Source of the DNA: Tribonema minus
Lineage: Eukaryota; Sar; Xanthophyceae; Tribonematales; Tribonemataceae
Direction of reading: 5' to 3'
Assembly: GCA_017506865.1 (NCBI GenBank)
Contig: JAFCMP010000390.1
Location: forward strand, 1-64,000
Length of the DNA: 64,000 bases
Below, piece after piece: positions 259 through 46,313 of the stretch. A program made the position numbers and the translations under genes. Below the pieces are notes generated by a model. The model was not told the DNA's origin, ran no database searches, and was given only the letters and a program-made list of their open reading frames with translations. Position 1 is the stretch's first letter. Each line of letters starts with the position of its first letter.

Positions 259-3200
259 GCTGCAGGTGTCGCTGGAGCAGACGCACGAGGCGTACAGCAC
301 CACGGCGGAGGCGCGCGCAAAGTCGGAGCTCGATCTGGACCAGGTGAGGCCGGTCAACGGGGCCAGTGCAGCAGCCCGTGACTTTGCGACAAGTTGCTAT
401 TGACTGCGTGGGCGACACAGGGGAGCTGCGCGTGACGCGCAGCACGTTGAGCGCTGCAGCTGCCCCCATGCTAACGCATCACGTGAAGTGTGTTGAATCA
501 GGTGATGCTCCGGCGCCAACCCACGCCGTGACGTAGTGCTGGTGCCGCGTTTGCAAGAAGCACATTGATGGCTCACTGTCACGGGGGGCGCGGAGCGGCT
601 GCACGATGCCTCTTTGTGCCTTCCGCCACAGTGCAGCGCCGCTGCCTGACCCTATCCCCAACCCTGTCAGAAGGAAGATGCCGGCATTCTCTGTCATGAG
701 GCGCAGAGCGGTTGCAGCGACATCTCCGCTGACTATGCCGGTGGCATGATGCTACTGTTATCATGGGCCCTCCTGTGTTGGCGGCAACGCTGCCGCGCGA
801 CTTGTTCAGAAATGACCCTGTGGGTGTCGACATGAGTCCCTTGTGTCAGTACGCTGTCTCGCACTATACCACTGACACGCGGGAGCACGTATGCGCGCGT
901 TGTGTGTGTATGGCGCGGCGCGTTGACAGACCAAGGAGGAGTACGCGCGGCGCAAGCAGGCGACGGAGGACCTCGCGCAGGCGCACGCAAAGAACATGGC
1001 GGAGCTCAACGCGCTGCAGGACACGCTCAGGTGCGCTTCAGTCAGCACTGCTCAGCGCCGCTAACGCACATATGTCAGCGCTCAACGCGCTGCAGGACAC
1101 GCTCAGGTACACCCCAGGACAGCGCTGCTCAGCGCCGTCGCGCATCAGTGTTAATGGCAGCGCTCAACCTAGCGTCAGCGCTCAACGCGCTGCATGACAC
1201 GCTCAGGTGCGCTTCAACCAGCACTGCTCAGCGCCGTCGCTCATCAGTGTTGATGGCAGCGCTCAACCTTAGCGTCAGTGCTCAACGCGCTGCAGGACAC
1301 GCTTAGGTGCTCTTCAACCAGCACTACTCAGCGCCGTCGCGCATCAATGTTAATGGCAGCGCTCAACCTTAGCGTCAGTGCTCAACACGCTGCAGGACAC
1401 GCTCAGGTGCGCCGCCGCCAGCGCTGCTCAGCGCCGTCGCGCATCAAGAAGTATTCATGGCAGCGCTCAACCTTGAAGTCAGCGCTCAACATGCCGCAGG
1501 CAGCATGCTGCAGGACACGTTCCGCTGCGCCCCGGTTCGTACCGCGTAGTGCTGTCACGCATGCTCACATGGTGCTCCGCCAGTAGCGTGCAGATGAAAC
1601 GTAAACACAGCGGCGCGCAACCAGCGGTGCTCACACAGGTGTTGCGTCAGTGCTCAGCCAGCAGTGCTCGTCACTCCTGTCCACATCTGTGCTGCACCAC
1701 CACACCCCAGCACTTTGTGAGTTCCGGGAAAAGTGGCTGCGCGTAGGCGCTGCGCAGAGTGCATACCTTAGGCAGCACAGTAAATTAATGTTCATTACAG
1801 CTGCTCACCATTGTAGGCTTGCTCAGCTGTTGTTGGCGGTGTGAGTGTCACGCCAATCGGCCGCGCTCATCACCACCGGAACTGTCCCTTTGTCAAACCC
1901 CTTTTGGCATGTGTGATGGCCACTCAGCAGTTCTGCGCTGGAACCAACACGCAACATCTCCGCTGCTCGGCGCACCCTCGATGCTTTGTGATTCGAGGTG
2001 CGACGCATACGGCAGCTGTCCGCAGTCCTGACCGGCACTGCCCCGGTCCCGGTGAAATGTCACCATGATGCAGCCAGACCGCTGTGCGCCCGCGGTGCGC
2101 GTTCAACCGCGGCAGTCGCGTGTGCTTCTTGTGTTCCCTCCACCGCAACTCGCCTGTGATGAGTCGACACTAGGTTAAACTGTGAATTCATATGAGCAAC
2201 TCCACAATGAGATGGGCTGACGACGCTTGCGGCGCCGGACTTGTGACGCCCATCACTACAGTACACAAAGGCCTAAAAAGGCATGCGTGGCCCCTGGAGG
2301 GAGGGCATGCTTAATTGTCCTTTGACGCGGCCTCTGCTGGTCGCTGCTGCCACAGGCAAGTGGAGCAGTACAACGAGGAGGTGAAGGGCGAGATCCTCGT
2401 GACGCGGCGCGCCACGTACAAGGCCGAGTCGGCCATGCAGGGGCTGGAGAAGGAGAAGGGGCGCCAGGACGTCTACATCAACAACCTGCTGGACCAGGTG
2501 ACGCGCGCACGCTTGAAGTTACTATTGCAGTTGAGCAATTGCTTGCAGTTGAAAGTCGACTGCAAAGTGGATTTCTGAGCGAGGGCGCAGTGCGCGCGGC
2601 CCGTCCACACACCGGAATCCCTCACGTGATGCGCACATGTGCTTGTTTGGGCAGTGATTGAAGTTGAAGTTGAGCGAGGGCGCAGTGCGCGTGGCACATC
2701 GGAATTCCTCACACACCTGTGAGTGAAGCACGCGCCTGCTCAGACCACGGCGACGATGCAGGCGACGCGCTGACGGCGTGGGGGTTCAGCCCCCCCCCAT
2801 CAGCAGCAGCCTGCAGACACATCGTGATGTCCATGCTCGAGTGGATAGTTGTGCTCTCAGTCTCTCAGTGCTTCGCGTGTACAGATTTGGAGGTGCTATC
2901 GGCTTGACGAGTCAGACTTGGAAAGCGCTACTGGCCGCATACATGATATGTAATACAATCGTGTCTGCTTCGTAAGCTCGATGAGACAGCTGTGACCGGC
3001 TGACGAGAACTTCACACAGCAAGGCCACATTCACCCTTGAAGCATCGACCGCTGCGCTTAGACTAGTGGCCTACCTGTGACTGACGACCTTCAAGTCAAG
3101 TCGCCGCAGTTTCTTCTCTTGGTCTCGGCTCTACGTGACGTGACATGACAGCGTGCACCCATGTAACTCACGCATAACCGTAACTGTGCACTGCGACCGC

Positions 3201-6200
3201 CGAGTTCACACGTGTACCCCCACGACCTCACGTAATTGTACCCGTGTACCGCCACTGTGTCGCAGGTGAAGCGCCTGCAGGAGCAGGTGGTGCTCCAGGA
3301 GGCGCAGATCGCGTCGCAGACGGGGCAGAGCACTGAGGCACAGGACATGATCAGGGAGACCGCCAAGGCAAGCGGACCAGCATTGCGAGCAGTGATGCTG
3401 CATCTCGACGTCTGTCGGGTGTGCTGCCATAGCATGTGCTGATGATGGCAAGATGTATCTGCTTTGCCGCTACATCGAGTGATGGTGGCCACTATGTAGA
3501 TGTGATCATCAACACCGCTAACGCAGCGGCGGCAACGTCCGGGTTAGGGTTAGGGTTAGGATTGGGGTTGGGGTTAAAATTAGGCTTATGGCACTGCACG
3601 CAGTGCACACGTCATCTCTGCCCGCCTCGAGCACAATCACAGCATGAGCCGCGGTCAGAAAGGCCACCAAGGCAAGCTCAGCACAGCCTGATGCTGATTT
3701 TAGCCCCAAACCCTAATGCTAGCCCAAACCCAGGGCGCTGGTTGTCCAGACGGCATATTCTGTGCAAAACACGATGGCTGCACACACTGGGACGGGGCTG
3801 CTGCTGTTGTCAATCAATCTCAATGATGCGCGAACACCAGACCCATAAGTGCACGAGTAATGTGCGTGATGCTGTTGGCAACACAACGCTCAAGCTTTCA
3901 CAGCTGCATGCTTGTCACCAAGCGTGTCAATTTTGAACATGCGTCATACATCATGTGAGCGGTGCAACGAAGGCTCTCCATATCAAAAGCAGCTTGTCAG
4001 GGTCAGACAGAGCTGCTTCGCGGCTGTAATGACCAATCGACTGCCTAAATGTGGACTGCGCACCGTGTCATTAAACCGTCACCAGATCACAAATGGCACT
4101 GCCCCTTGTGCCTCTAAAGAAGCTTTAAGTGCTGACAGTCATGTCGGCACTCAGCAATACTAATATGAGGAGCACAACAGACTCTGGCAGCACCATGCAC
4201 GCTGAACACGTTACCACACTTGCTCACACGCCACAAATGTGCACTGCTCCCTACAATAATGCCGCACCCTTGCAGGAGATGGAGGTAATCCACTTTGAGA
4301 AGAAGCAGCTGCTGCAGCAGTGGCGCAGCGCGCTGGTCGGCCTGGCACGGCGCGACGAGGCGCTGACTGCTGCTACTAATGCGCTTAGGTGGGCCTCCAA
4401 CCGATGCATGCACGCATATGTCATGACGCCAGACCTTTCATGCCGGGGACTGCTGGCCATTGCATACTGTAATCGTACAGATCCCAAATGGTTGCAAGAT
4501 ATGCTTGCACGTTTGAAGGCTACACGCTCAAAGTGCGTGGCGGTGAGAGCCTTTTCAACGCACAGCATTGATGAATGACGAAGGATGACTCGTCTCTGGC
4601 CGTGTGCGTACTCGTGTGGAATTGGTGACATTGGTATACAGTGCAACCGCAGCATTGGTGTGTGTAGCTCAGCAGTGGACTGGTCATAAACGATCACCCC
4701 GATCACAGGGCCTGCTGGGCAATGACATGTTGCTGATGCTGATACCAGGCTGATCTTACGCTCCAACTGTTGCGCGCTGCGCAGGGACGCGGAGAACGCC
4801 TCCCGCGAGCACGAGACGGAGATAGAAGGTATGCACACTTGTACATTACTTCCCTGTGTATGTACGATATCTATCTTTGACAGAGGCGCTCCATGTGCAT
4901 CATCTCATGAGTAGGGGGGTCCAGAGCCCTGCTCTTCTGATGAGCACTAACGTAGTACGCGCCGCTCTAAAAGTAGAAGTATAAAGACAGGCATGACAGC
5001 GCACCCAAGCCCTGGTAGTCATTGGGAGCACAGGGTGCAACCTCTCTGCCAGCAGGGACGCGTTCAAAATCGGGCTAAAGCAGGTGCAGCGCAACAGCGC
5101 TCTGCGGAGAGAGGCGTCACCGCGCGCGGCCAGCGCGCACTGCTGGGTGCATGCGGCAGCTTGTCGTGCGCCTGCGACTTACGCTGGGCACAAACACTCA
5201 AGCAGCGCTCAGGTGGTGCACACTCCTCCAGGGGTTGCGCGCATCACACCACCATCACATTGTGCATTTGGCTGCTCTGCTGTGATGACAATGAGCGAGA
5301 CGCGTGCACTGCAAGCGCGCGCATCGCGTCGCGGCTTCGCTCATTGCGAGCGCGCCTTTTGCTGAGCGGCGTCGCAGGCCTGAAGCGCGAGATGGTCAAG
5401 GCGCAGGCGGAGAACGAGACGCTGGTCGCCGTGAAGGACCGTCTGCAGAGCGAGGGCAAGTACGCAGACGAGCTGCTGGAGAAGCTCAAGGTAGGCATGT
5501 ATGCGCAGTGTGCGACATCCGCGCTGAACGTTGCTTGCGCGTTGTGCAATCATTGTCCGGACCAACAGCGCTCAGAGGTACATATCAGTGACTTGTTATC
5601 TACTCTGAAACATGTACTTCAAATCAGATACTTTATAGCACACAGGGGTTGCGGGCTGGGTCTGCTCTTGTCGCTCTTGCAATCATGGTGCGTGGTGGGC
5701 GGTCGGTGATGGCAATCTGAAGCTGTGCACGGCTGCACCGCCAGCGATGCACCTGGTGATCTTGCTCATATTGCCACGCTTTCAAAAGTATAGAAGTACG
5801 AAGCCCTCGAGTACTTCAGGAGCGTGCCGAAGCTCCAGACACGCCTTTCACGATGACTTGCCATCACATTGTTGCCGCCCGCAAGCACCATTGCGCCTGT
5901 GTCGTCTGACGCCTGAATTCAGTAGATGCCAGGTGCTGGCGCGATCCTTGAACATTCAGCCAGAATGTGGAACATACGGTGACCTGTTGCTGTTGTCACT
6001 AAGATTCTGTTTGTCTGATGCTCTGGCACCGCTGCTCAAGATGCCGCTCTGGCGCCGCTGCTCAAGATGCCATTTGGTGACTGTTACATCCGTGCAGCCC
6101 GCTTCATTGCGAAAATTCAGGGGAGATGGCAATGCTGGTGGTGTTATGTACGGCAGGTTACGACACATTGCTGATTCTGCAGAGCGCTGCAGCAAGCTGT

Positions 6201-9200
6201 GTGTGACACGACCGTCAAGAGCACCCAGCCCTGCGCATGATGAGCACTGCGGCAAGTTCAACATGCGACTTCAACCACGACCTCGCAGCTGAACAACAAC
6301 CGCCCGGCAAACACACACATCGCATTTGGGCCCTTGTGTTGCCATTCACCTACTGTGCGTAGCCCGCAAGCGACGACGATGCTCACCCCCCCCCCCCCCC
6401 CCCTTTGCCTTGTCCCGCAGGCGGACGGCGACCGCCTGGCAGAGACGTACACCATGCTGCAGCGCTCCAAGGCGCAGATGGAGGAGGAGGAGGGGCGCGT
6501 GGACGCAAGTCACAAGCATTTGCGCCACCAGGCGAGCTATCGCGCGCAGCACGCGCAATGTCACAGCTGAAACCAAAGAAAGCAAGTAAATGTAGCTGTG
6601 CACGGCTACTTGCGCCGCGGCGTCACAGCTCTAGCGACGGCCTAAGAGGTTACTCGGCTGCTCCCGTGCGTGAGCTGGTCACGTGCGCTCTGCTGTCGCG
6701 TGCAGGTGCGCTGCTGCCGCTGCACCCGCAGCTGCCGCAGCTGCTGCAGCAGCTGCTGCAGCGGACGGCGGCGCTTGACACGCCTGTCGCAGGCGCGCGC
6801 ATGCATACGCGCAGAGGGCTCTGCCGCCATGCCTGCTGGTTGAATAGGCATCAGCTACCCGACGGCCTTCACAGCGGTGCTGCATGAAGGCAGACACGTA
6901 CAGCTGCTGCCGCAGCAGCTGCTGCCGCAGCAGCTGCTGCATACCGTGCTACTCGACATGCATGCATCGCGCTTGCCAGTGGGCGCGTGCAAGCGGCATG
7001 CACACACAGCATTGCCCACACATGGTGGACAGCTAAAAGCAGTCGCACGAGCGGCTGCAGGGAAGGCAAGAGGCTAGCATCACGACCGCACTGGCCCACG
7101 TACATCCACGGCTGACTCTGCTGACTCCCCCCCCCCCCCCCCCGCGCGCGCGCCCTGCAGGTCGGCATCCTGACGCAGAGCGTGCAGACGGTCACGCGCG
7201 AGCGCCAGAAGCTGGAGAAGGCCGCCGCGCTCGCCGTGGAGCAGCAGAGCACCACCAGCAAGGCCATCTCCATACTGGCCAAGCAGCGGCAGCAGGCGCT
7301 CGCAGAGTGCCACGAAAAGGAGGTGAGGCTATGATACACTGCGCAAGGACCGGCGTCACATCGTAGGCAGCGCAGCGCCGCCGTAGGCCGCCTGGCGCGC
7401 AGCAGCGTTGCTTCCGCCCATGTTTAGAACAGGCGCTGGCGCTCGTCAGGGCCTAGTGCGGCCGTTGTGCGCATGCTGCAAGCTGAGCGTGCAGATGCGA
7501 CCGTTTGCATTATGATGTGCGCCAGGGAGGATCGCGCACAGTTTTGATGACTGCAACGCAAGCGCGGGGCAGCACGAGCGCTGCAACCAAGCGCACCACG
7601 CTGCTTGCCTCCATCACATCCGGTGCAATGCGTGATGTCGCCTGAGCCTGCACCCCCTGACCGCAGCTGCACATGCACGGCGGTGCCATCGCCGCTCCAC
7701 TTCTGACTTCAGCAATCCCCGACGCCCCGCCGCTCGTGCGCCGCGCGCCGCAGGCAGAGGAGGCAAACCTGCAGAACGAGCTCGCGCGCGTGCGCGTGGA
7801 CGTGCTCAACACGGAGGCGCACAACGCTCAGCTGCGCGAGCGCGTGGCCGAGGTGGACGCGGAGCTTGCGCGGCGCGACCGCCTCATTGCGCGCTACCAG
7901 CTCGAGATCCGCCAGCGCGCGGACGAGGTGGAGAAGAAGATGTACAGGGTGGACAGGTGCTGACCCTAACCCTAAGGCTGACTCTAACCTTAGTAGTACC
8001 CCTGACTCTAACCCCACTGGTAGCCCAGGACTACTGGTAGCAGTCCTGAACGCTGGGGCGAACGCGCCGCCCGCTCATCAGCTCAGCGCGCAGTGGCAGG
8101 CTGCGTCTTCCTGGCAAGCTCGCACGTTTCGTTTGTCGTGTCGGCACAGGGCCGAGGTCAGCTCAGTGCAGCGCGTCACACAGCGCCTCTGTTGCGCTCA
8201 TGCGCTTCGAAGCAGGTGTTGTGCTTTATATGGGTTGCTCAGGGTTAGGTCTGGGTACGCACTAGGGTTAGGGGTAAGTTTCAAGCGCCCCCCCCCCCCC
8301 CCCCCCCCTGCACCCTAGCGGTAGCTGGATGTCGCCTGGTCACGTCACAGCACGTACAGCCTGCCAGTCCTTAATGCCACAATCTTGGTGTAGTTGCTCT
8401 CGTGGTCAAGTTCAAAAGTTGCGCGCCCGGGTCGCCGTGTGCGCACCACGGCTACGCTTTCTCAGCTGCAGCACGCCTCAGCGCTGTTCTCATGCTGTCA
8501 TCTCTGCCATTGTTGCCGCTGGTGTTGCCGCACAGGCTGAACCGACGCTACGAGAAGCTCGTCCAGCGAGCTGCTGAAGACGAGGCAGGCATCGAGGGCA
8601 ACGGGCCGCTGGAGGGGGCCATCAGAAACCTCAACAAGGAGGTGCGGTGAAGTTCGTGATGTGTAGCTGTGACGCGTGGCGCAGTTCGAACCAACGTGAG
8701 CTCAGAAGCTCAGGTTCAACACGTTGAGTTGAAGGAGCACTTTGCAGAAGGAGTCCGCTATGCCAATGAAGTTTTGCGTATGTTGATACTACTCTCAGGA
8801 ATGCATCCTACACCATGAAGTCCAGAGCACAGCAGAGGCAGCTCAGGGCAAGCGCTGGGGATTGCCGAGGCTAGGTATGTATTGACCGATACCTTTAGAC
8901 CCCCCCCCCCCCCCCTTCCCCCTCCCCCAAACACACTTCCTCCAAACACCAGATTCTCACAAAACGGTTGAGCACAGCGCGCCTCACCCCCCTCCCCCCC
9001 CCCCCCCCTCCACCTTGCGCGCAGATCGACGCGACGCGCGCGGAGCAGGAGCGCCTCAAGCATGAGTGGCTGCGCGACCAGACCAAGCTCGTCTCCACGG
9101 CGAGCGCGACGGAGGACGTGCTGGAGGCCAACGATGAGCTCAAGGCGCACAGCGGCATACTCGCAAGGCGCCGCGCGCGCATCATGGGCGAGGCCGCCAC

Positions 9201-12200
9201 CAACGAGGCCGAGGCGAAGCGCCTCGCCGCCAGCATACAGGTGGGCGCTGGCGTGCTGTTCAAGTTTGAAGTTGAAGGTTAATGTGCCACCAATGAGGCA
9301 AGCGCCTCGCCGCCAGTATACAGGTGGGTCGCCACGTGAGACACCCTTGACCACACACGTATAAGTTGGAAGTTGAAGTTGGAAGTTGAATGTGCCACAA
9401 ACGAGGCTGAGGGCAAGCGCCTCGCCGCCAGCATACAGGTGCGCGCTGAACACGCTGTTGAAGTTTGAAGTCGGAAGTTAGGTGTTGAATGCACGCCGCC
9501 AACGAGGCCGCGAGGCCCAGCGCGTCACGCCAGCATGCAGGTGGGCCGCGGCGTGAGACGTCCCTGACGGGGGCGCGCCGTGCATTTGCTGCAGGAAGTT
9601 GAAGTTGTAGGTTGAAGCCATTGGAGAGCACGGCGACGTGCAGGGCGCAGCAGGGCGTCGTGTATGGTTTGGCCGTGCCGCCGCCGCTGCCGGCGACTGC
9701 GAAGTTCGTTGTTGTCTTGCCACCAGCGTGCTGGTGCGACAGTCCGGGCAGCGTGTAAATGTGATTGCTGGAGGGGTAGTGGGGGGGGGGGGGTGCAGGC
9801 AACGGCTGCAGTGCTGCTACACTGTACCGACTCGTTCCTGCACGGTGCAGCAATGATGCGACGCCTCGCTTGTGAGGCCACGATGCCAAAAGTGGTGTGC
9901 CACGCCGCTGCTATGCCGTCGGCATCCAGTTGTGAGGCGGAGCGGACTGGCTGCTGGCGCGCTGATGGAAGCCAGCATGTTTGATCCGGCACACGCCTGT
10001 GCCGCACGCGTAGCGCTTACAAGCACGCCGCACTGGCAAGGCCCCACGCGCCCTGGAAGACCGCGCGATGCACCTCCAGCATCGTCCCGTGCTCTGTCGA
10101 TTGACGTCAGTCTCATGCCCCGCCCCCCCGCCCGCTGCCGCTCGCACCATGTGCCCCCCCTCTGCAGGCCATGCACCTGGACATGGCACGCCTCAACCAG
10201 CTCATCGGCAAGAGCGGCGCGCAGGCCGCGGAGCTCGGCAACGCCTCCAGGTGAGGGCTCGACTTATGTCAGAGTCTAGCTGCGGCCGGCGCAGAGCTAC
10301 ATCAGGATTACGTTTTGGCGAGCCTTGACCAGCCTGTGGTGCTTCTCGGGGCAATTTGATGATAGGATCGGACCGCAACTTCCCACATATTGCGGAGGTG
10401 TCACAGCGCTCGTCAGGCAGGGGCGGCGCGGCGGCCGCCGTGCCCCAGGTGCCGCGGCCGCGCTCCTTCCCGCTGTTATGCGTGTGCCACCTTGGATGCA
10501 TGATCATGTGCTGCGCGCATGCGCAGCAGACGCTTCCCACGCACCAATTGCGCAATCTGGCTCTCGCGCCGGTTGAGGCACCTGGCGCAGACCCGCGCCG
10601 CACCGCCTTCGTGCTGCATCACGTCCGTGCTGCTGGCCATACCTTTCACTGGCTGTGCCCCAAAGCCATTGCGACGCACAATATTGTTGACACTCCTGCC
10701 ATGCGCCGCCCCCCTCCCTCCACGCGCCGCGCAGCAACATGGAGCGCGACTTCCTGCTGGAGCTCAAGGCGCTGGAGGCGGAGAGCCTCGCGCTGGAGGA
10801 CAAGATCGGCACCGCCAACGGCGCCAAGGTACCCAGTCGCTGCATATATGCATGCTCTCCGCGTTATGCACTCCCCCCCGCAGCGGGCGGCAGGCGTGCA
10901 CCCGCATCCTGGAATCGAAACGTGGGGAGCGTCCATGCAGACACGGTTCTGAAACGCATAATCCGAACATGCCCCAGGAAAAGATGTCGTTTGTAGCACT
11001 CGTAAACCACAATGCTGCATGACCCCTACGTACTCCCGGTTGCTGCCGCCTGAGCATCATCATCAGCAGCAGTGCATTGACGCGGTGCTCGTGTCTGGCC
11101 CCCTCCTGCCACCCCCCCCCCCCCCGCATTGCCGCAGAACGACATCCTGGCGGAGATCGTCGAGACGGAGCGGCAGCTGCTGCTGTGGGGCAAGAAGATC
11201 CAGCTGGAGAAGGAGACACAGGCAGCGCTCGACCCCGAGGCCGGCAAGGGCGAGGTCAAGGGTATGGAACGGGAGGTATGTACTTCAATAGAGCATGTAT
11301 GTATCGTCATGCAAGCCATGAGCTACTTCAGGTGCTCAGCTACTTCAAACAGCGTCGCACGATGCAGTGCCGCTGAACGCGCGTCACCCCCTACCCACAC
11401 ACGCCCGCGCGCACGCGCCGCCCGCAGATCCACCGCATGCGCGTGCGCCTGGACACCCTCAAGCGCGAGCAGGAGACCATGATACAGGACATGGAGCAGG
11501 CCATCATGAAGCGCGAGCAGATCGCCGTGCGGTACAAGGTGAGTGGCAGCGCTCCACCAGTGGCAGCGCTCCAGACGTGCGCGCGCACGCCCTCGTGCTG
11601 CAGTGCACACGCGATCAGCGCCAGGCATGACGTGCGCATGGCTGTCCAAGCATCCTGCATGCTGAAGCGTCACCGCACACGCGTTCGCGCGAACCACCGT
11701 CGGCGCGTGATGTCTCACGCGGTGCCAGACCCTGCACACCCGCCGGCAGCACACTGGCGCGCTTCGCGTCGCCGCACGCACGCTCGCCATGTTGGACCGG
11801 ACGTCACCAGGAAGTTCATCATAGCCCGTGCGCTGTCACTTGAAGCTCGCACCGCTTGCATTCCTCGCCGTCATGCTCATGTTTGGCGGTTGAACTTATG
11901 CGCGTTCATGGCCGCTGCGACCTCCAGCACCGCCCTTGACTCGCGGCGCGTGCTGCATGTTTGTCTTCCTCGCGCGGCGCGCGTGCAGGGCAAGGCCGCG
12001 GCGAGCGCCAGCAAGCCCGGCGCGTGGGACCTGACGCAGGCCGCGCTCAAGAAGCGCGTCGCGGGCGCGCAGAAGGACCTGCAGCGCCTCGGCAGGGAGA
12101 TGGCGCAGGCAACGGCCGCCGCCGGCGACAGGCGCGCTCAGGTGGGCGTACGCGAAGCCCCATGGTTGAGGTGGCAAGATTGATGCTTGATGGCAGGCGT

Positions 12201-20378: not shown

Positions 20379-20565
20379 ATGCTGCCTGCAAGCCAAGGCT
20401 CGCATTGATGCAAGGACCCCAGAGAGGCAAGTTCTAGTTGAAGTGGTGACCTGAGGGACCCCATCTTCACGGGTGCTCACGTCACCGAGCAGCTTTCTTT
20501 TTATCAGCCGTCGCGTTTGCAGAGGCTCACTACCTGTTCTACACACGAACACCACACAAGTAGTC
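20379..20565. promoter_or_regulatory. Divergent promoter, arm A copy
   Basis: 187 bp between the ATG of the plastid-targeted gene and the ATG of the broken FANCB-like fragment. Nearly identical to 31341-31532. A shared TTTTTATCAG stretch ~60 bp upstream of the plastid gene could be a TATA-like element. Confidence 0.5.
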
Positions 20566-21711
20566 ATGAAGTTCGCCGTGGTTGCCCTGCTGGCCCTTGT
20601 GGCCGCCGCCAGCGCCTTCGTGGCTCCCTCCGTGCCCCTCGCCCAGGTAAATCCAACGTCTCTCGCATCACGCTCATGTTACCAAGCGTCCTGGGCAGTA
20701 ATGCGGTTGCCATCGCTGTCTGCACACTTGCGGGGCACCAGGCACATCGCAAGTGCTGGCGTATTGCCCTGCAGCAGCGTGTATTCACGCCCCGTGCACG
20801 CATGCCGTACATGGCTTCAGACACGGCTAGATTGAAGTTGAACGGAAAAAATTCGCTGTGACTGCAGTCACGCCGCACGCTCCTCTTCGACAGGCTTACT
20901 GACGCCTGGCCTCCACTCTTTCTCCCTTGTCTCCTGCAGCGTTCCTGCTCTAGGCTCTTCGCCGAGGGCAAATACGACGGCAAGCTGTGGGACGAGGCCG
21001 CCAAGCAGGACGTCCTGTCCACATACGACGCCTCCAAGCCATGGGGGGAGACGGTGAGTGGCATGCAACGCATGCAGAGCACTTTCCTGTGTCTGTCCGC
21101 CTGCAGCGTGCCTCTGCTGTGACATGTAGCTGCGTCGCGAGCGCTAGATTTGTTGCAATGTGCGGTCAACGCGATGCGGCGAGCAGACCGTGTGTACGTG
21201 GCGGATCTGCTGCGTAGTCATTGTGTTACGACAGCAGTCGACGACAAGTGTGCTCTATGTGCGCATGCTTGGCCGCTTGGAACCGGCGTGGCTCGTGCCC
21301 CGGCTGTTGGTGATTGCATTTGTACGCATTTCGTTTGAACGCATGCAACGCAGATGCCATGCCATGTATGGTTGCTGTGCATACATAGCTGGCTTGGGCT
21401 GCAGTCTGTCTGGTGCTTGAAATGCCATGCATTCATGACTTGCCTTGACCAGGGTGCATCACCAGCTGCATTATGTAGCCACCACCTGCCCCCCCCCTCC
21501 CCATTGCACCACGCTTACTCACACATCTTTTTCTTGAACTGTTGCTGCTCCTCAGAACTTCGACCCCTACAAGCGTGACGGCAACGGCAACGCCTGCGAC
21601 CCCAGCGGCTACTACCCGGGGGAGGGCAAGTACAAGGACCCCATCCGCCCCTCCGTCAGCTTCGCAGAGTACCAGAAGCAGCGCGAGGAAGCCGCCAAGG
21701 CTGGCAACTAG
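20566..21711 (+). CDS. Small plastid-targeted protein, copy A
   Basis: Unrecognised 116-residue protein. Exons 20566-20646, 20940-21053 and 21556-21711; both introns are phase 0 and GT-AG. It starts with a hydrophobic signal peptide (MKFAVVALLALVAAASAF) whose cleavage region is ASAF, followed by a short Pro/Ala stretch and RSCSRLFAEG: a bipartite targeting signal for a complex red plastid. The mature part is short, hydrophilic and rich in Asp, Lys and Tyr: KYDGKLWDEAAKQDVLSTYD, then NFDPYKRDGNGNACDPSGYYPGEGKYKDPIRPSVSFAEY, then a charged helix. No membrane segment. A small extrinsic subunit of a thylakoid complex is one possibility, not shown. Copy B differs at residues 23 (V/A) and 105 (Q/L). 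Confidence 0.85.
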
Positions 21712-21884: not shown

Positions 21885-21890
21885 TGCCAA

Positions 21891-25800: not shown

Positions 25801-27423
25801 GGCGGGGGGGTGGAGGGGGGGGTCGGGGGGGGGGGGGGGGGGGGCGTGAGCACAAGCGGGGGGGTGGTTGGGGGGGGGGAGGGGTTTGTGGGCTGGCGGG
25901 TGGGTGGGCGTGCACAGCGAACGGCGCCGAGTTTTGTCGGCACAGGGCTTGCGTGATCTACGCACTCAAGGTCAGGGACACTCACACATGAACAGGGTGC
26001 AACTATCGTCTGCGTAGCGCTCAGCGAGAACATGCTGCGTGCATGTCCGCCCGTCGCTTGCTTGCCGGAGATGCGCCGGATGACTAAGGCAACACTCAGT
26101 GGCCGCAGAGCAACAGGACAACTGTGACCGTCCGACAGACGTGCACGGATGAGCATGACGTGCCCCCCTCATGCCAACCGCCACCACCACATTTGCAAAC
26201 CTCTGCCGTGTCTCCGCCGCTAGCGCTGCCCCCCGACAGCACCGCTGTGCACGTCGCGCAGCCGACGCGCATGCGCAGGACTTGCAGGCGATATTCTCAA
26301 ACCCCCGCATGCGTCTCTCAAGTCGCATCGGTCACCAGCTGCACGGGGCCGCTGCCACTCACCAAGGCCCTGCCGATGGGCGGCAGGCGCGCGCCCAGCA
26401 GCTGCTTCGCCAGCGCGCGCGCGGACGCGTCCTGCGCGGCGCAGAACTCCGACACCAGCTGCCACCCGGCGCCGCCCGCAGCCGCGCCTATCACAGGGGC
26501 GCGCACGCGATGGGAAGTGTTGAGGAGGCCACGAGGACCGTTAGCCGTGGACTTCTACACGCGGGCGTCAAAGGCGGCAGGTGGCATACAGAGGAGGCAT
26601 GAGCGGAGCAGCTACAGCGACGTCGCCTCTGACCGACACTGAACGACACAGTGGGCTGGGCCGATGCCCCCCCCCCCCCTCCCCCTCTTCACTGCAGACA
26701 CGCACGAAAGCCAGCTTGCGGGCCTGGCCGCCGACGCTGCATACGGGGCCCGCGGAACACAGAAGTGCACATAGCGAGCACCGCAACTGCTGCTGAGCGC
26801 AGTGTAGGTACAAGGCAAAGCAGCTCAGCTTTGCATGCTCATGGTGACCGCTAAGACTTGTCACATGTCGGCCTGATGAGCACCTGCACGCGCATGGTGC
26901 ATGCGCTGACTCGCAGTTGCAACATGATATGCAGCTGTGCTGGCGGTAACAGCGTCCAGACTGCATCCTTGCGCGGCGCAGCTGTGGTTGTAAACTGCAC
27001 GGTGCTGTACCTCCGAGCATCAATGCAGCATTGCTCAACGCTCTTCAAGCTGGTGACTTGCCGCTTATCAAGGCATTGCTGTGTGTTGTGCTGCTTCAGT
27101 CGGAGCGGATTGATGCAAGCACGGCGCTTGTGAACTTGAATCGGTCAGCACTGCCAACAGCGATATGCCTTGCGGCCGTAAGCTGGCACATACAGCTTGT
27201 CAACATGGGCGTGCCATTTTTTGTGATCGCGACAGGCCTGAATCTCGCGCACCACATGTCACCACACAGGCGAGCAGTTGTGCTACGGCTGTACATACCT
27301 CCTGGTGAAGCCAGTGCACATGCTGCTGCGGGCGTCAGGCACGCCGCAGCTCCCGCCAGCAGCGCCGCCGCACGCCGCTGCACGCCTCCTCTCCATGCCG
27401 CCTCCGCGCCGCCTCCATCAGAC
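22895..27423 (-). CDS. Unknown Ala-rich membrane protein (N-terminus not found)
   Basis: Six exons join in phase to an open 417-residue frame: 27423-27299, 26487-26363, 25786-25459, 25025-24708, 24133-23940, 23059-22895 (TGA). I do not recognise the family. Hydrophobic segments that could cross a membrane: RRAAALLAGAAACLTPAAACALA (exon 1), a long LLPLAVAATIAGQLACLAVTYALLRTLL stretch (exon 3), and ALLAAVLLRV...GVASGIALSAMAVASLVTAG then HAAVLYCVV (exon 5). Between them lie soluble parts with FNATRSAVDRVAAQRNATL (two possible N-glycosylation sites) and RIDALAEVRGFDL. The last exon is a basic, Gln-rich tail. Acceptors are preceded by sense-strand C runs. No ATG is in frame in the first exon, so one or more exons lie upstream. 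Confidence 0.5.
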
Positions 27424-29954: not shown

Positions 29955-29959
29955 CTGCA

Positions 29960-29967: not shown

Positions 29968-30194
29968 GGAAACAGGCCCTTGTTGCTGGGTCAGAGCCCT
30001 GCACACACACACTCAATCACCACTCGTTACATACAGAGGTGCGGCTGCGCCTGCACCCTCACCGCTAGTCAGGGCTGGACGGCTGCTGTCCGTTTGAAGC
30101 AGGCATTGCCTTGTCGGTCACCGGGCATCTGTAGAAGGGCCGTCACCAGAGTGTTGGTTCGTCGTCTTGTCTAACTGCTGAGGGAAGTGTATAC

Positions 30195-31340
30195 CTAGTT
30201 GCCGGCCTTGGCGGCTTCCTCGCGCTGCTTCAGGTACTCTGCGAAGCTGACGGAGGGGCGGATGGGGTCCTTGTACTTGCCCTCCCCCGGGTAGTAGCCG
30301 CTGGGGTCGCAGGCGTTGCCGTTGCCGTCACGCTTGTAGGGGTCGAAGTTCTGAGGAGCAGCAACAGTTCAAGAAAAAGATGTGTGCGTAAGCGTGGTGC
30401 AATGGGGAGGGGGGGGGCAGGTGGTGGCTACATAATGCAGCTGGTGATGCACCCTGGTCAAGGCAAGTCATGAATGCATGGCATTTCAAGCACCAGACAG
30501 ACTGCAGCCCAAGCCAGCTATGCATGCACAGCAACCATGCATGGCATGGCATCTGCGTTGCATGCGTTCAAACGAAATGCGTACGTATGCAATCACCAAC
30601 AGCCGGGGCACGAGCCACGCCGGTTCCAAGCGGCCAAGCATGCGCACATAGAGCACACTTGTCGTCGACTGCTGTCGTAACACAATGACTACGCAGCAGA
30701 TCCGCCACGTACACACGGTCTGCTCGCCGCATCGCGTTGACCGCACATTGCAACAAATCTAGCGCTCGCGACGCAGCTACATGTCACAGCAGAGGCACGC
30801 TGCAGGCGGACAGACACAGGAAAGTGCTCTGCATGCGTTGCATGCCACTCACCGTCTCCCCCCATGGCTTGGAGGCGTCGTATGTGGACAGGACGTCCTG
30901 CTTGGCGGCCTCGTCCCACAGCTTGCCGTCGTATTTGCCCTCGGCGAAGAGCCTAGAGCAGGAACGCTACAGGAGACAAGGGAGAAAGAGTGGAGGCCAG
31001 GCGTCAGTAAGCCTGTCGAAGAGGAGCGTGCGGCGTGACTGCAGTCACAGCGAATTTTTTCCGTTCAACTTCAATCTAGCCGTGTCTGAAGCCATGTACG
31101 GCATGCGTGCACGGGGCGTGAATACACGCTGCTGCAGGGCAATACGCCAGCACTTGCGATGTGCCTGGTGCCCCGCAAGTGTGCAGACAGCGATGGCAAC
31201 CGCATCACTGCCCAGGACGCTTGGTAACATGAGCGTGATGCGAGAGACGTTGGATTTACCTGGGCGAGGGGCGCGGAGGGAGCCACGAAGGCGCTGGCGG
31301 CGGCCACAAGGGCCAGCAGGGCAACCACGGCGAACTTCAT
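30195..31340 (-). CDS. Small plastid-targeted protein, copy B
   Basis: Second copy of the 116-residue protein at 20566-21711, in opposite orientation. Exons 31340-31260, 30966-30853, 30350-30195, with the same lengths as copy A. ATG at 31340 and TAG at 30195. The signal peptide and ASAF motif are intact. Two residue changes are visible: Ala for Val at 23, in the transit region, and Leu for Gln at 105, in the C-terminal helix. The first intron ends TAG here rather than CAG; both are usable acceptors. The frame and splice sites are preserved, so this copy is probably expressed. It is divergently arranged with the FANCB-like gene, 192 bp apart. Function unknown. Confidence 0.85.
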
Positions 31341-31532
31341 GACTACTTGTGTGGTGTTCGTGTGTAGAACAGGTAGTGAGCCTCCGCAAACGCGACGGCT
31401 GATAAAAAGAGAGCTGCTCGGTGACGTGAGCACCCGTGAAGATGGGGTCCCTCAGGTCACCACTTCAACTAGAACTTGCCTCTCTGGGGTCCTGGATCCT
31501 CGCCACAGCCTTGGCTTGCTGCTAGGCAGCGT
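31341..31532. promoter_or_regulatory. Divergent promoter, plastid gene B / FANCB-like gene
   Basis: 192 bp between two start codons on opposite strands, so both genes must be driven from here. Almost unchanged between the arms, including the CTGATAAAAA stretch. Confidence 0.55.
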
Positions 31533-34500
31533 ATGAGAGGCAAGGGCAAGAGGAGCGACAGCAGCAAAATCCTAGACGCCGCATCAGCCACTCTCTCCTG
31601 CTCTTCGATCTTTGTCACTGGCGGTGCCTTGGCGCAAGTCACTTGTGAAGCGAGCGACGGTACAGAGCCCCAATGCCCGCTGCAGCTGACCACAGCCCGA
31701 TTCAACGACAACAAACACCGACTTTCCTCACATACTGCTCCCCTGTGCTGCAAGCTGCCCGCTGCTCTCGCCGGCAGCTGCAGCGGCAGGCTCGACATCC
31801 TGGATGCTCGGGAGTTGGAGTGCCTGGACCTCTGCTGCCGCGCTGTGTGCGTGTTGCTGAGGAATGCTGGGCGTCTGTTGCTGGCAACACTGCCTACCGA
31901 GGACCTGTCTGCACCGGCAGCCGTGGAAACCATCTCCACTGACACGACTGTGATCGCAGGCACCGAGTGGCAGCTGCTAGATGGCCCCGCTGTCGTCTCG
32001 GTGTCACCGCTGACAGACACGCGCAGCCGAGTGCTCGTGCGGCGGCAGCCAGGTGAAGCGTGGCATGAGACCACTTTTACACCGGAGAGCGTGTGCACCC
32101 AAGATTCAGCCACATTGAGCACTGCCCTCTGGAGCCGCCGCCCTGCAGAGGGCGGCGGTGTTGCAAACGCGCAGCGCGCGGCAGCCGGGCGTGCGCAGCT
32201 CACCGCGCATCCGCTCGGTCACCTGCGCACGCTGCTGCTCAGCAACTGCAGCGACTGCAACGTTGACGGACGTGTGCAGCTGCTGCTGACCCTGTGCGAG
32301 GACGACACAGGCGGTTGCGCATTCGCGAGTGTCGCCCCGTGGCCGCCGCCGCTGCCACCCTCCACAGAGCACGCCGCCACCCCTGCAGCCGCCGCCGCCG
32401 CAGTGGTATGCGCATGTGCAGCATCACCGCGACCGCAAGCTGACCTGTACGCGGGCGCCGCCGACGCGCAGCTGCTGCTGTGCGCGCCAGGAGGAGTCCC
32501 GCGCTGCGCGACGCCGCTGCCGGCGCGCGCCGTGGACGTCCAGCTCGCGAGCGTCGACGACGCCGGCGGCGCAGTCGTTGTCACCCTGGCCAGCGCCAGC
32601 GCCAGCGCCGCTGACGCAGTAGAAGAAGCAGCGCAGCCGCCGTCGCAGCGCTGCGTGCACCTGCTGGCGTGCGACGAGCTGCAGCACGCGACTGTGGTGT
32701 CCTTTGACGGCGCCAGCGCGGCGCACGTCGCGGACTTTCTGGGTACGGGGCGGCAGCAGGTGGCCGTAGTGCCCGCGGGTGGCAAAGCGTCTCTCGCCGC
32801 GGTGGCCAAGCACATTGTGGTGACGGATGGGTGGACGGTATGGCGCGACGGCAGTGCTCAGCGCATCCCCTCGTCCGGCCACACGTACGTGCTCGCCACC
32901 ACCACCTCTGAGCCCACTGCGCCGTCTTCCAAGAAGCGTAAGAAGGGCAGAGCTGCTGGCGCTGCCACGGATGGCGGCGGCGGCGGCAATGGCGGCGGCG
33001 CGGCGGACGTCGGCGCCACCGCTACCGCCGCCGCTGCCGCAGACGGCGCAGGGGGAGATGGGCCTGAGGACGGCGGCGCTGCTGCGCCCTCAAAGAAAAA
33101 GCAGAAGAAGCGCAGGGATATCGCGGCCGCAGGCGGTGTGCAGGAGCAGACTGGCGCTACTACTACTGGTGATGGCGCAGCTGCGGCCGTCGCTGGCGGC
33201 GAGGCTGAGGGCGCCGCCGCCGCCGCCGCCGCAGCCGCCGCTGCAGCAGCAGCTGGAGCGACAGCCAAGCACACGGGGCGAGAGCGGCGCCGCAACGCGC
33301 GCGCTCAGCAGGACGCTGCGCAGCACAGGGCGGCGCAGCTGCAGGAGGTGGCGGCGGCGCTCGCGGCGCTGGAGGCGACGGAGGCCGCCAGACTGGCGCA
33401 CATGCGGCGCGAGTGCGCGGCGAAGCGGCAGCTGCTCTGCGCCGGCGAGGGGCTGCTGGCGGAGATGGCGGAGGCGGCGGCGGTGGCGGCGGCGGAGGCG
33501 GGGGCGGTTGCGGGCGCACGTGTGAGTTATGCGCTGCGAAGGCGTGAGATGCGCTGGCAGCATGTCAGATTCGGCGGCTGGTTGGCAACAATTCTTGCTT
33601 GCATGCAGACGCACGAAAGGGAGCGCTGCGGGGCATCACAGCGTTGTTGCGTGGATGGCAGTGTGGGGCGCGCTGCAGACGTCTTGTCATGCTTGCAGTA
33701 GTTGCACTTGATGCACCACTTTGGCGTGTCAGCAGCAGCGATGCGTGGAGCCGATGCATCGACGAAAACGAGGCAGCGGATGCGTGCTGATGACGTTCAC
33801 TTACTCAAACACATTGCGAGTCACAGTCGTCGAAGCGTGTGTGTGGGCACCATTACCCCCATTGCATCTATCTGCCTGTCATGACGTGCCTGGCGTCTCC
33901 CCTGCCTCGATGTCGCAAAGTTCCACCTGGTCTGATGATGACCTCACAACGCTCGCGCTGCAACCCACCCACGCTACGACCGCGCGTCGCGCAGGAGCCG
34001 GCGGCGCTGTTCGCGCCCTTCACGGGCGACCTGGTGCCGCTCTTCAGCAGCGCTCAACCCGCAGACACAATGCTCACGCAGCATCGCTCGGCGCCAGCGC
34101 CGCCCGGCGCGCCGCCTCCGCAGTGTCTCTCCAGCGCCCTGCAGCTGGCTGCGGCCACTGCGGATTTCGATGCGGCGTCCGGCACGCTGAGCATCTCGGC
34201 GCTCGTGAGGAATGCGTCGGCTGCTGCGCTCGCGCGGCGCGTCTGTATCAGCGCTGCGCCCGCGATCGGCGCGTTGAGGTGAGGACTTGTGTCTGGTGTC
34301 GTCGCGATGCGTGCGCGCGCGTTGTTTGTCGCCGCAGCGGCCATGGCGCAGGTGGCGGCGGGAGCGGCTTGTGTGTACGTAGTTGAAAGCGGGGCTGAGG
34401 CTGCCGCACTACGGTCTGCGTGCAGCGGCGGCTGGCGCTGAAACGCGTCAAGCACATTGCATTGCGGCGACCCGCTTTGGCTGACGACAGCGGGTGTGAG

Positions 34501-36637: not shown

Positions 36638-38021
36638 CTGGCGGCGTGTGCTTGGGTTGTATTTGGCTGTGTGCATATTGGCTGCACTTGTGCGGCAGAT
36701 TGCAGCTGAACAGGGGCTCTGTTGCGAGTGAGTAGTGACAGTTCCCTGGCATCGTGCCGATCTGAAATGAAATGCGTTCAGTGTCATGACATGCAGTGTG
36801 CTGTTGCTTGGTTTGCACAGTATGCACTGTGGTGTACATGTTCATGCATCGCAAGGTGTCAAAATATGTGTAATGTACTGGTCACCATGACACGTAAAAC
36901 TGAGCGATCGAGATGCTTGTGTTTAGCTGGTCACCACGTTACATTATCACTGAGCACTGAGGCTCACTCAAAATCAAGCATGATGTCTTATGTAGGAGCT
37001 TGCCATTGACACGTTGCATGCAAGGCACCAGGCACACAAATGACATCATCCCATGCAGGGCCTGATGTTTGATAATCTTGACCTCTCAAAGATGACAGGG
37101 CAAGAGTCAGGCGCCGGCACACTGAGCAGTAGATGAACAAGCATCTTGTGCAATATACACATTGCTGAACAGGGCAACAGCTTGACTTGTGACTTGGGCA
37201 TCTTCACTGGGGTGGTTGCCGTGAGCAATGAAGAATAAGACGCCACAAGCAGGCGCTGGGGTGGTTGCCGTGAGCAATGAAGAATAAGACGTCACAAGCA
37301 GGCGCGATGCGCTCATGAGCACATCAAAGCAGGGAAGCACAAAAGAACACCGGGGCATAAGAGGCTACACATCACACAATTAAGAAAGGGGCTATATTGA
37401 TGCAGCAAGGATTAGTTCGCAGTGGGACCAATGCAGCTCTCCGGCTGGACATTGTTGAAATGCGTCAAAGACAGTTACTCTTACGTCTGCGAAAGCCACC
37501 GACTGACATGCGTGCCGATTCAACCACGCTTCTCACCATGGACCGCATGGGACGCACGCGAAGCGAGGGTGGTCTGCACCCACACAACCGCAAATTGCGC
37601 GCAGGACTGCGGCAGCCAGTGACTGCGTCCCGATGTAATGCGAAAAGTGCGCCAGATACCTACCTACATGTGGTTACACGCCGCCCCCCGTGGTTGCAGC
37701 AACACCCAAAAGCTGCCAACACATTGAAGGAATGCGGTCACAATGCCGCAGAGTCCGCGCCAGTACCTTGGCGACAGCAGCAGCGCGCGCAGCACACCCC
37801 ACCACTCGCACACCCTCGCTCAGCCGTGTAAGAGTGTAGACAGCGCTGCTGCCGCACGGCCGCGCCGCCAGTGCTTCAACGGTATGCGCGAGGCAGCGCG
37901 TGGCCTGTGGCCAGCTGCGTCAACTTCGCTGGCGCCACCCACACTCAGCGCCGCACTCCAGGGCCCGCGCACGCAGCCGCCCGGTACCGGACCCGGGGGC
38001 AAGGGCGCGCAGCGGCGTGCC
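36638..38021. other. Spacer between convergent FANCB-like and MDR genes
   Basis: About 1.4 kb holding both 3' UTRs and a 49-bp tandem repeat. An open frame near 37397-37831 has no family resemblance. Confidence 0.5.
37207..37304. repeat. Tandem repeat, 49-bp unit x2
   Basis: Two consecutive copies of a unit containing GGTGGTTGCCGTGAGCAATG, differing at one or two bases. Confidence 0.9.
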
Positions 38022-42588
<4,567 letters not shown>

Positions 42589-43699
42589 GTTTTTCAGTAC
42601 TGGGTGCCGGTTTGGCCTTCATTTGCTGCTTCCTTGCTCGGCCTCATCGAAGCTTAAATTCTTTGAAGTTCGGGCCATTGAACTTGAAGTTTCCGGGTTG
42701 TGCACTTTATGATTATATGCTGATGCACACAGGCCATAGAGCACCCTAAGCTTGACGCATAAAGTCTGAAAAGTCACTAGTGGTCGCCAATGTGGTTCAC
42801 ACATGCCAAAACGGCGGCTAACAACAAGATAGATGCCATCCCCTTGTACACGGGGCGCTCTGACGTGTAGGCAGGTTCTCACAGGCACACATTCTAAAGA
42901 TATGCTCGTGCCATAATCACGCACAGCTTGTGACAAAAAAATTCGCGTGTAGTGACTTCAAATGAAGTGCACAATCTTAGAAGGCATACTGGCATGCCAC
43001 AATAAGGACCTGCACCCATGCTGCAAATTAGAGCCGAATCTTAACATAAGCAAGTGGTGGAGGCAATACGCACAGAGCAGGCAACGCATATGATATGTGC
43101 CGACTTTTAATAGGGTGTCGTGCTTGGAGACCATTCGTCAACACAGATAGAACGACGCAGGTACAAGAAGTCGCATGCAAATTTGTTTTCTGCAGCTCTC
43201 CGGTACCTGAGACTGCCAATGACGATCATGATCAGCCCACGAACAGCACAAAAGATGACCGTACTGCTTGCACAAGCGCAGTATGGGCACTGCACAACCA
43301 GGTGACATGATCCGACAGGCTGGTTGATTTTGCACGTGGTCTACTTGAAGAGTGGGACAGCGCTGAAACCAGCCACACATCACATGCTTCCTTCACAACT
43401 GCATTGCAGATGCCGACGGCAGCCGAGATGTGCATGGACAAGAGGCAATGCCATGTATCATTTACATCCGTCAATGCTGCCGTGATCCCCATATAACGCC
43501 TGCGCATTGTGCGGCAATCACCCGTGCTCGACCGGCCCTGGGGCACCCATCAAGCGCCGCACTATAAAAGCGTAAGTGTACAAGAAACCAGGTCCTCAAT
43601 GTACAAGACACCAACTCCTCTCGTCCGACTAATCGCTGAGCTCCACCATGTATGCACAAGTTGATTAAACTATAGACAGACACATCGCCATGCCGCTGC
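42589..43699. other. Spacer between MDR promoter side and SDR 3' end
   Basis: About 1.1 kb between two minus-strand genes, moderate GC. Holds the MDR promoter and SDR 3' UTR; no further gene seen. Confidence 0.5.
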
Positions 43700-46313
43700 T
43701 CAAGCCTTGAGTCTCCACCCCCCGTCTATCTCGTGCACGCTGCCCGTGATGAAGCGTGCCTCGTCCGACGCCAGGAAGCACACCAGCGCGGAGACCTCGT
43801 TGGAGGTGCCGGCGCGGCCAACGAGCGACACGGGCGCCGCAAAGTCGTGGTAGCCCTGCTCGGTCATGCCTTCGCCCATGAGCTCCGTCCTCACGATGCC
43901 CGGCGCGACGCTGTTGACGCGTGTCTTGTGCTTGCTGGCCTCGATCGCCTGTAGACAAGCGTGACCGGGCGGTGTGAGCAAGCACCGCTTCGTCGCGACG
44001 GCGCAAGCCAAGGCCTGCGCCACTGTCAGGCATGCTCTCCTGACATCCCTCATCAACAGCTGGTGCGCCGCAAAATGTATGCCAAGGCAACTCGCTGAGA
44101 GTATGTGTGCGCAAGTACGCATGCTTCACGTGCCTCGCAGATGTCGGTGCAAGGCAGCAATCACACAGCAACGCCGTCCCCGTGCTCACGTACCGCGTAG
44201 CGCATGATCATGTCGGCGGCCGCCTTGCTCCCCGCGTACAGCCCAGCGCCCGTGAACGTTGGGTTCGCCGGTGCGCGCAGCCCCATGCAGCTGGAGTTGA
44301 CGACAACGCTGCCGCCGCCGCCGCTCCTCTCGATGGCGGGCAGCACGTGCTTCAGTCCGAACGCCACGCTCTTGACGTTGGCGTCGAATATCTGTAGTGA
44401 GACAGTCAAGATGGACGGTGGCGAGATTGGAGAAGAAAGTCATGGGGATGCATGCATCTGCGAAGGCAGTAGCTCGGCACACCTATGACAGCAGGACAGA
44501 GGCGCCCAGGGGGCAGCCGCGTTGTAGGCCTGGGGCCCGCCGACCGGCAAGCGTGACATGTGCATGGTGCTACAGACGTGCCGAGACCGCTCAGAACAGG
44601 GCTCAAAGCTGAGTGTGTTGATGTACATGCTGTCATCAAGCCTGCGCGCATGACATGAGCCGTTCTAAACTAATTCTATTTGGTTACAAACGCACCTTGT
44701 TGAAGAGCTCCTCGGTCACCTGCACACACCAGTAGAACAGACAGCAGTCGATGGAGAAATGTGAGTGGCACAGCCACAAGGGGGATCACAGTACATGTGA
44801 ATCACGCTGAAAGCATGCTGCAGGCAGCCGGCTGCATCAGCGGTAATACATCCAGCATGTGGGACAGCTCTTTCCAGACCTTGTGTATGACAGGTGCTGC
44901 TGCACACACAGACACCCCTTGACATGATCGATGGTTGTTGAAGCACCATGTACTGCGCCGGGCTGTTTGCAACTACTTCGAAGTATTTGCAAAAATTCCG
45001 TGCCGCTTTGCAGCATGTCCTCATTCGTCGCTTGGCTACATGTTTGCTGCAGTTGCTGCGCGCAACTCTGTTGACATATTGGCCTATGCAGCTGTCATCG
45101 CATCCAGCAGAGCCGCGGATGCTTGCGTCACGTTCATGCAATGGGACAGCATACGTACCTGATCAACAGGTGCACCTCCATACGTCCCGGCATTCAGGAA
45201 TGCGACGTGCAGCTTGCCATACGTCGACAGGGCTGCCTTCACCATCTCCTCATTCGCGGCATCGGTGGACACATCTGCTGCCACTGCAAGCACGTCCCCA
45301 CCTGCAGCCTGAGCGTGCAGATACAGCCAAGCTTGCGTGAGTGTTCGCATGCGAGCATAACTCAGGATCACATGTGTGTATATTTGTCACAATGAACGTG
45401 ATGCTTCACGGCTGTAACTTGACGTCAGTTTGCGTGAGGTTTGCATGCGAGCAGACTTCAGGATCACATGCACGTATCTTTTGTCACAACAAACGTAATG
45501 CTTCAACCTTGATGTCAGCGTGCATGAGGGTTCGCATATACGAGCAGAACTTAGCATCACATGCACATAACTTTTGTCACAACGAATGTTCTTGCTACAC
45601 GGCTGTACCTTGATGTCAGCTTGCGTGAGGGTTCGCATGCGAGCAGAACTTTGGATCACATGCACGTATCTTTTGTCACAATAAACGTGATGCTTCACGG
45701 CTGTACCTTGATGTCAGCTTGCATGAGGGTTCACATATACGAACAGAACTCAGGATCACACGCACATCTTGATGTCAGCTTGCATGAGGGTTCACATATA
45801 CGAGCAGAACTCAGGATCGCACGCACATAACTTTTGTCACAATGAATGTTCTTGCTACACGGCTGTACCTTGATGTCAGCTTGCGTGAGGGTTTGCATGC
45901 GAGCAGAACTCAGGATCACAATAGTGGAGAACAGCAGCGGTTTACTGCGTTAGCTTCACGGCTGTACCTTGATGTCAGCGGCGGCTGCCTCCAGCTTATC
46001 CTGCGTCCTGGCCACCATGACCACTTGGGCGCCCTCTGCTGCCAGCTGGCGCGCAGTTGCTAGGCCCATGCCAGATGAGGCGCCAGTCACAAGAGCTACC
46101 CGGCCTTCAAAGCGCTGAGGGGTGGAAGGCAATTGCAATATTTTGTGAGGACGACTTGCAGGACCTACTCAGGTGGTGCGCTGTAAATTAATTACTTTGC
46201 AGTGGAAGTGGCAGCGACGAGCAGAGCAGAGAAAGCCAGCTAGGATGCTATCCGGTCTGGATCGATCATTGGCAGCTCAGCCTCAGCCCAGAGCCCACCT
46301 TGCTAGCCGCCAT
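43700..46313 (-). CDS. Classical short-chain dehydrogenase/reductase (SDR)
   Basis: NAD(P)-dependent oxidoreductase, 260 residues in six exons, all phase 0: 46313-46299, 46114-45968, 45308-45159, 44719-44696, 44391-44194, 43948-43700. Motifs are in order: TGASSGMG cofactor site (15-22), ADVS (cofactor-side Asp), NAG (93-95), NSS (catalytic Ser 145 or 146), YAGSK (Tyr164, Lys168), and NSVAPGIVRTEL. The end is GSVHEIDGGWRLKA, as in 3-oxoacyl-ACP reductase-like SDRs. No targeting peptide is seen, so it is probably cytosolic. Exon 1 has only five codons and exon 4 only eight (VTEELFNK); the latter is needed to complete the helix before the NVKSV segment. The second intron is mostly tandem repeats. 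Substrate cannot be told from sequence. Confidence 0.9.
45412..45980 (-). repeat. ~100-bp tandem copies of SDR exon 2 end and donor
   Basis: The exon end GCTGACATCAAG with its GTACAGC donor (real end 45968) recurs with exon-equivalent ends near 45868, 45767, 45706, 45608, 45507 and 45418. Most spacings are 98-101 bp. The 45767 copy has lost the GT, others keep it. Units share a TTTTGTCACAA(T/C) block and a CGCATGCGAGCAGAACT-like block. Confidence 0.92.

Follow-up and report, generated by a model that had tools for sequence, protein, structure and literature searches.

Introns at the start of contig JAFCMP010000390.1 (C390) of Tribonema minus carry repeated copies of the edges of neighboring exons. 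Are such introns being born, lengthened, or supplied with spare splice sites? We addressed this question in the first 64,000 nt of the contig (the window), which belongs to an assembly of 158 Mb in 554 contigs with a GC content of about 60%, and at further loci of the same genome. The results favor lengthening: pre-existing introns are quite probably lengthened by short tandem duplications that span or adjoin an exon-intron junction. Gene models came from a purpose-built, self-trained finder, and their comparison with Pfam covered loci L027 to L034 and five genes of the window.

Exon-edge arrays in the window

The sequence-only reading of the window had claimed seven arrays anchored on exon edges in three genes on both strands within 1031-45980. 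Repeat and self-offset scans, alignments of exon edges, and reading of the sequence confirmed all seven, and an eighth was found at 63188-63490. The outermost copy of each of the seven is an exon edge. The copies run head-to-tail in direct orientation and contain exon and intron parts. Donor-edge copies lie downstream of the exon, and acceptor-edge copies lie upstream of it, with a polypyrimidine (Py) tract and CAG. As a correction to that reading, acceptor sides carry arrays as well as donor sides (38346-38600 and 41318-41570).

On the + strand, two donor-edge arrays lie in a coiled-coil gene, whose match to BRE1 (25.7 bits) is under the cut-off of 27.9. Gene model and sequence place its two relevant exons at 930-1030 and 9025-9240. 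The last ~28-31 bp of the former, with the donor CAG|GTGCGC, are unit 0 of array A (1031-1533), whose copies stand at offsets 76, 176, 276, and 376, with a decayed copy at 494. The last ~45 bp of the latter are unit 0 of array A2 (9241-9559; offsets 84, 198, and 299). As a contrast case, a 95-bp duplication within an intron (2573-2702, + strand) lies 75 bp from the donor and contains no exon sequence.

The remaining arrays are on the − strand, in genes assigned by Pfam to the MDR zinc dehydrogenase, SDR, and PP2C families; the gene finder had predicted SDR and MDR as a single gene. In the MDR gene, the initial 26 bp of the last exon (38017-38345) are copied upstream, within 38346-38600, as Py tract, CAG, and exon prefix at an offset of ~192-195. 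Donor-edge arrays belong to its exons at 39497-39688 (array 39353-39534, offset 125, first intron base 39496) and 40368-40586 (array 40085-40394, spacing 98-106), and the exon that ends at 41317 has an acceptor-edge array at 41318-41570, with units spaced by ~130 that take in just ~15 bp of exon. Support is weakest for the two acceptor arrays, and that at 38346-38600 was detected by exon-edge alignment only, being missed by the array scan. The SDR exon at 45968-46114 has a donor-edge array (45325-45984, spacing 61-101) that occupies most of a 659-bp intron. The eighth array is a degenerate donor-edge copy of the PP2C exon at 63467-63657, at an offset of ~235-270.

Decay of the copies and lengthening of introns

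We then considered what the units consist of. In all 15 arrays that were aligned (40 copies), the units hold exon sequence and adjoining intron sequence in register. Divergence from unit 0 was 0.074 for exon parts and 0.182 for intron parts, the latter measured from the first intron unit. The ratio of 0.41 (95% confidence interval [CI], 0.29 to 0.57) is near the value of 0.5 expected for a static exon with neutral copies. The decay of the two parts thus agrees with an exon that stays static while its copies drift neutrally. GT or AG was preserved in 37 of the 40 copies, which can be explained without selection on the copies, because these bases are static in unit 0. Since the copies differ among themselves (copy-to-copy divergence of 0.03 to 0.33 per array and part), an assembly artefact is unlikely.

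In a list assembled by hand, units were 61 to 235 bp long (median, 117 bp), and 19 of 59 values were between 90 and 110 bp. The ~100-bp unit proposed earlier describes the arrays of the window better than those of the other loci, and the spread excludes a fixed unit of that length.

A paralogue of the SDR gene allowed us to compare the same intron with and without an array. This paralogue (L035), on contig C22, has exon pieces 80-86% identical to those of the window gene. At the matching position it has an intron of 327 bp in which the scan, at its threshold, detected no repeats, whereas the array-bearing intron of the window measures 659 bp. Because the equivalent intron exists without an array, the SDR intron of the window was lengthened, not born; the comparison covers this one intron. 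Of the proposals made from the sequence alone, that of introns being lengthened was supported, with exon-edge copies inserted repeatedly.

The same reading had offered birth of introns as another possibility, arguing that the CAG/GT cores fit a model of intron gain in which tandem duplication of exon sequence containing AGGT creates splice pairs. Under this model, that of Rogers, the arrays would be introns at birth. The donor cores are indeed intact in the copies, in keeping with the high retention of GT or AG. However, the signature of such a duplication (identity of at least 19/30 at an offset equal to the intron length) was found in 0 of 77 introns, against 21 of 1,534 control offsets. Moreover, the intron of the gene at 45-46 kb is already present in the C22 paralogue, and the copies contain intron sequence besides exon. 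We regard birth of introns by this route as very improbable, and the proposal was not supported.

A third proposal was that the arrays supply spare donors. More generally, the copies could be selected spare or decoy splice sites that buffer or regulate splicing. The unbroken GT or AG of most copies and the lower divergence of their exon parts than of their intron parts would agree with this. Nevertheless, the donor-copy offsets showed no frame preference (remainders 0, 1, and 2 modulo 3 in 12, 9, and 11 of 32 cases), and the open reading frame fails to reach 21 of 25 tested copies. The ratio of divergence from unit 0 is that predicted without selection on the copies, and arrays differ greatly in their number of copies and in the length of their units. 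Selection for spare sites is thus very improbable, and the proposal of spare donors was not supported by these counts.

Introners occur in photosynthetic algae of several lineages, and transposable introns of this type, or another dispersed element, might have supplied the units. A plastid-type leader encoded in the window points weakly to an introner-bearing algal lineage. However, four array-holding queries gave one genome match each and no near-identical sequence at other loci, in a search that skips very common words, and the array part of the SDR query matched itself alone. The arrays searched are not introners, because each matches a single locus; the units also consist of the local exon edge. 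A dispersed source is therefore the least credible of the explanations considered here. The MDR gene likewise gave a self-match only, and the PP2C gene gave mostly matches to a GCG-type repeat near 59.57-59.65 kb. No second alleles of the array loci turned up in the genome searches with array-holding queries.

The leader mentioned above belongs to a small gene (~107 aa) present in two near-identical inverted copies, at 20564-21708 and 30198-31342 of the window. Its ASAFVAP-like sequence weakly resembles plastid light-harvesting leaders in PDB (best match FCP5, E 0.006), which suggests an alga with a secondary plastid.

Taken together, we propose that tandem duplications of ~60-240 bp would arise repeatedly in and around genes. 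Where the duplicated segment crosses or abuts a junction, the outermost copy would remain the true exon edge under purifying selection, and we infer that its splice site is the one used. The remaining copies would end up in the intron, be spliced out, and drift neutrally. Later duplications, some taking several units together (342 bp at locus L029), would then build arrays and extend old introns. The mutational source would be slippage, microhomology-mediated repair, or unequal exchange.

Recurrence at other loci and position relative to junctions

Does the same process act elsewhere in the genome? Recurrent copying of exon edges into introns, as had been suggested from the window, was seen in contig C1 and at loci reached via chaperonin and kinesin genes. 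In C1, in a stretch chosen without regard to arrays, three donor-edge copies follow one exon, which we take from a motif to be aminopeptidase-like. We also inspected by eye genome-wide Pfam exon tables with at least 132 kinesin, 56 TCP1, and 80 HSP70 rows. Among the matches listed, six kinesin or TCP1 rows duplicate the edge of a neighboring exon; these protein-level copies lie downstream of the exon on C5, C246, and C511 and upstream on C51 (two) and C135. We noticed no copies in the wrong direction among the kinesin, TCP1, and HSP70 matches listed, and no edge copies at all among those listed in the HSP70 rows or in 131 kinase rows. In the same kind of table, kinase and HSP70 matches recur at equal or nearly equal scores in C144, C223, and C278 and in C90 and C179, which suggests unmerged haplotypes.

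Many arrays, both donor and acceptor, were found at L029 and L030, which had been chosen partly since the Pfam tables showed copies there. At L030, a true exon is preceded by five copies of a Py tract, CAG, and 49-105 bp of exon, and L029 contains larger duplications of 342 bp that copied several units together. L027 has two arrays, neither with exon sequence, and L034 has one. Arrays were looked for at L028 and L033, and none was found.

The sequence-only reading had called for a comparison of exon edges with shuffled exon-intron pairs, which we carried out on a small scale. In alignments of 40-bp edges with their own introns, a score of at least 30 was reached by 5 of 70 donor edges and 3 of 76 acceptor edges, compared with 10 of 2,872 shuffled pairs (Fisher P 7e-7 for 8/146) and 0 of 146 edges against the reverse-complemented own intron. 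This test used the self-trained gene models, and the edge of one match (intron 39689-40317) was misplaced. After revision of the gene model and exclusion of low-complexity or short edges, which left 104 of 152 edges, 6 of 104 edges reached the score, against 0 of 101 shuffled pairs. Repeat clusters as such occur at 1.45-1.72 per 10 kb of real DNA, whereas 100 kb of C1 shuffled by a first-order Markov model yielded no repeat hit at the same threshold. However, interior 40-mers were repeated, with a score of 30 or more, in 58 of 1,718 cases (3.4%), compared with 5.8% of edges (Fisher P 0.18). Edges thus beat shuffled pairs, but with interior 40-mers repeated at almost the same rate, these data do not establish a process that targets exon edges.

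We next asked whether junctions attract duplications or merely tolerate them. The arrays were compared with simulated random duplications, of which 34% straddled an edge when introns kept their observed lengths and 51% when introns were short. The comparison used a table of 38 intronic arrays that was curated by hand, with additional lengths estimated. This table includes W38345a, detected via edge alignment rather than by the array scan, and W45968d, classed outside genes by the array classification and placed by hand. It counts W41317a, L029_2035d, and L034_3180d as straddling, from alignment and revised exons, though the array classification put them in introns. A stricter table omits W38345a and sets these three as non-straddling. 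Left out of the table were the low-complexity cluster at 33011-33241, clusters outside genes, most clusters with units below 60 bp, and L031 and L032, which had been picked for showing copies. Two clusters of C1 were also left out though classed as straddling, 81167-81309 and 124578-124874 (gene end unclear; unit of 40).

Several results weigh against simple tolerance of randomly placed duplications. In the full table, 26 of 38 arrays straddle an edge, where 9.3 are expected at current intron lengths and 15.4 with collapsed introns (P 4e-5); allowing for a detection bonus raises the expectation to 18.0 (1.5-fold; P 2e-3) or 20.0 (2-fold; P 0.017). The stricter count of 22 of 37 compares with 15.0 (P 0.005), 17.6 (P 0.06), and 19.5 (P 0.21; 2-fold bonus). 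Arrays that do not straddle are also crowded near edges, 11 of 17 lying no more than 80 bp away where 5.5 are expected, although the 80-bp zone was picked post hoc and a 60-bp zone gives P 0.07 in this test. Straddling arrays and those within 80 bp together make up 34 of 38, against 22.5 expected, and 7 of 9 on arbitrarily chosen contigs, against 3.4. In nine arrays, copies differed from one another by 0.117 over their exon parts and 0.254 over their intron parts, a ratio of 0.46 (CI, 0.31 to 0.63); growth by copying of an array's own units would predict a ratio of 1. Finally, the copies closest to the exon are the most similar to it (rank gradient, P 0.0014; the test drew on the 8 of 10 arrays with two or more copies, and the junction of L032 was guessed). 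The last two results suggest the exon edge, rather than other copies, as the source of the copies.

Such observations would be expected if exon-intron junctions were mutational hotspots, at which a process linked to transcription or splicing (R-loops, lariat-templated repair, or junction nicking) recopies the edge. The presence of multiple distinct junction points inside single arrays of L029 and L030 points the same way. Copies would then be born at the junction while older ones are pushed inward and decay, and introns would lengthen from their ends, as on a conveyor belt. On the other side, the straddling excess depends on the group, at 8 of 9 arrays in the window, 15 of 20 at the chaperonin loci, and 3 of 9 on the arbitrarily chosen contigs, where 2.0 are expected; the window, L029, and L030 were not randomly picked. 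The excess weakens in the stricter table, its significance varying with the detection bonus, which makes a hotspot less likely. Interior 40-mers, as shown above, are repeated at a rate not significantly below that of edges. The rank gradient and the low exon-part divergence may be explained by faster change of the Py tract or by ordinary decay at array ends, distal decay being normal there too. We therefore consider a hotspot driven by transcription or splicing unlikely, though likelier than the other rival explanations, and hold the conveyor-like growth that it would produce to be equally doubtful. On balance, we lean against a hotspot at the junction itself. We read most of the pattern as the outcome of tolerance of tandem duplications in introns, possibly with an extra junction bias on top.

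Other sequence features and comparison with known systems

A few further features of the introns and of the window deserve mention. The sequence TTGAAGTTGAAG occurs at 0.6-1.7 per 10 kb in introns of the window, C1, and C10, versus 0 in Markov sequence. Its sense core, TTGAAGTT, lies within 150 bp of a donor at 12 of 24 intron sites, versus 0 of 13 for the reverse complement; sites that lie inside arrays are not independent. A 49-bp tandem duplication with 98% matches, at 37207-37305 and outside predicted genes, is probably recent. Long G-runs (C-runs on the coding strand) at 25791-25846, 48829-48882, and 61014-61060 sit 3-5 bp past predicted acceptor edges of minus-strand exons and are poly-C polypyrimidine tracts. 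A six-copy interstitial GGGTTA repeat lies at 3541-3576.

Intron lengthening and the intrinsic mutability of junctions are both poorly known. Ordered, decaying copies of an exon edge within an intron would record the growth of that intron in a form that is readable without relatives. They also call for care in annotation, as the copies bear splice sites and coding-like sequence. Our own gene finder called several edge copies exons, for example at 4789-5077 of L029 and 2651-2985 of L030.

Among the titles and abstract openings listed by searches of open-licence papers, none described exon-edge arrays, let alone arrays of several copies at either end of established introns in more than one gene. 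One structural parallel is the intronic minisatellite, in which units of ~100 bp run head-to-tail and the array ends are decayed. The units described here are head-to-tail as well, as in any variable number of tandem repeats (VNTR) locus, but unit 0 is an exon edge under selection.

According to passages on novel introns of Drosophila (PMC2891723), the AGGT model was applied there and judged by proto-splice sites in coding sequence. That case resembles ours in that short tandem duplications in genes, there of coding sequence, are tolerated by splicing; unlike here, the passages on it do not describe arrays at existing junctions. The AGGT model itself, as outlined in part of PMC3443670, has exonic sequence tandemly duplicated to give a new intron of unit length. 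It shares with our arrays a local tandem duplication close to AG|GT, but the introns examined here lack its unit-length signature. A further parallel is the potato RdRp gene, for which passages of PMC4974935 report that one tandem duplication across an intron-exon boundary made a new intron, with RNA-seq support. There, as in T. minus, the duplication spans the junction and the splice signals are inherited from the parental structure. Unlike the potato gene, however, T. minus has multi-copy arrays at several loci, and the single intron that could be compared with a paralogue was merely lengthened.

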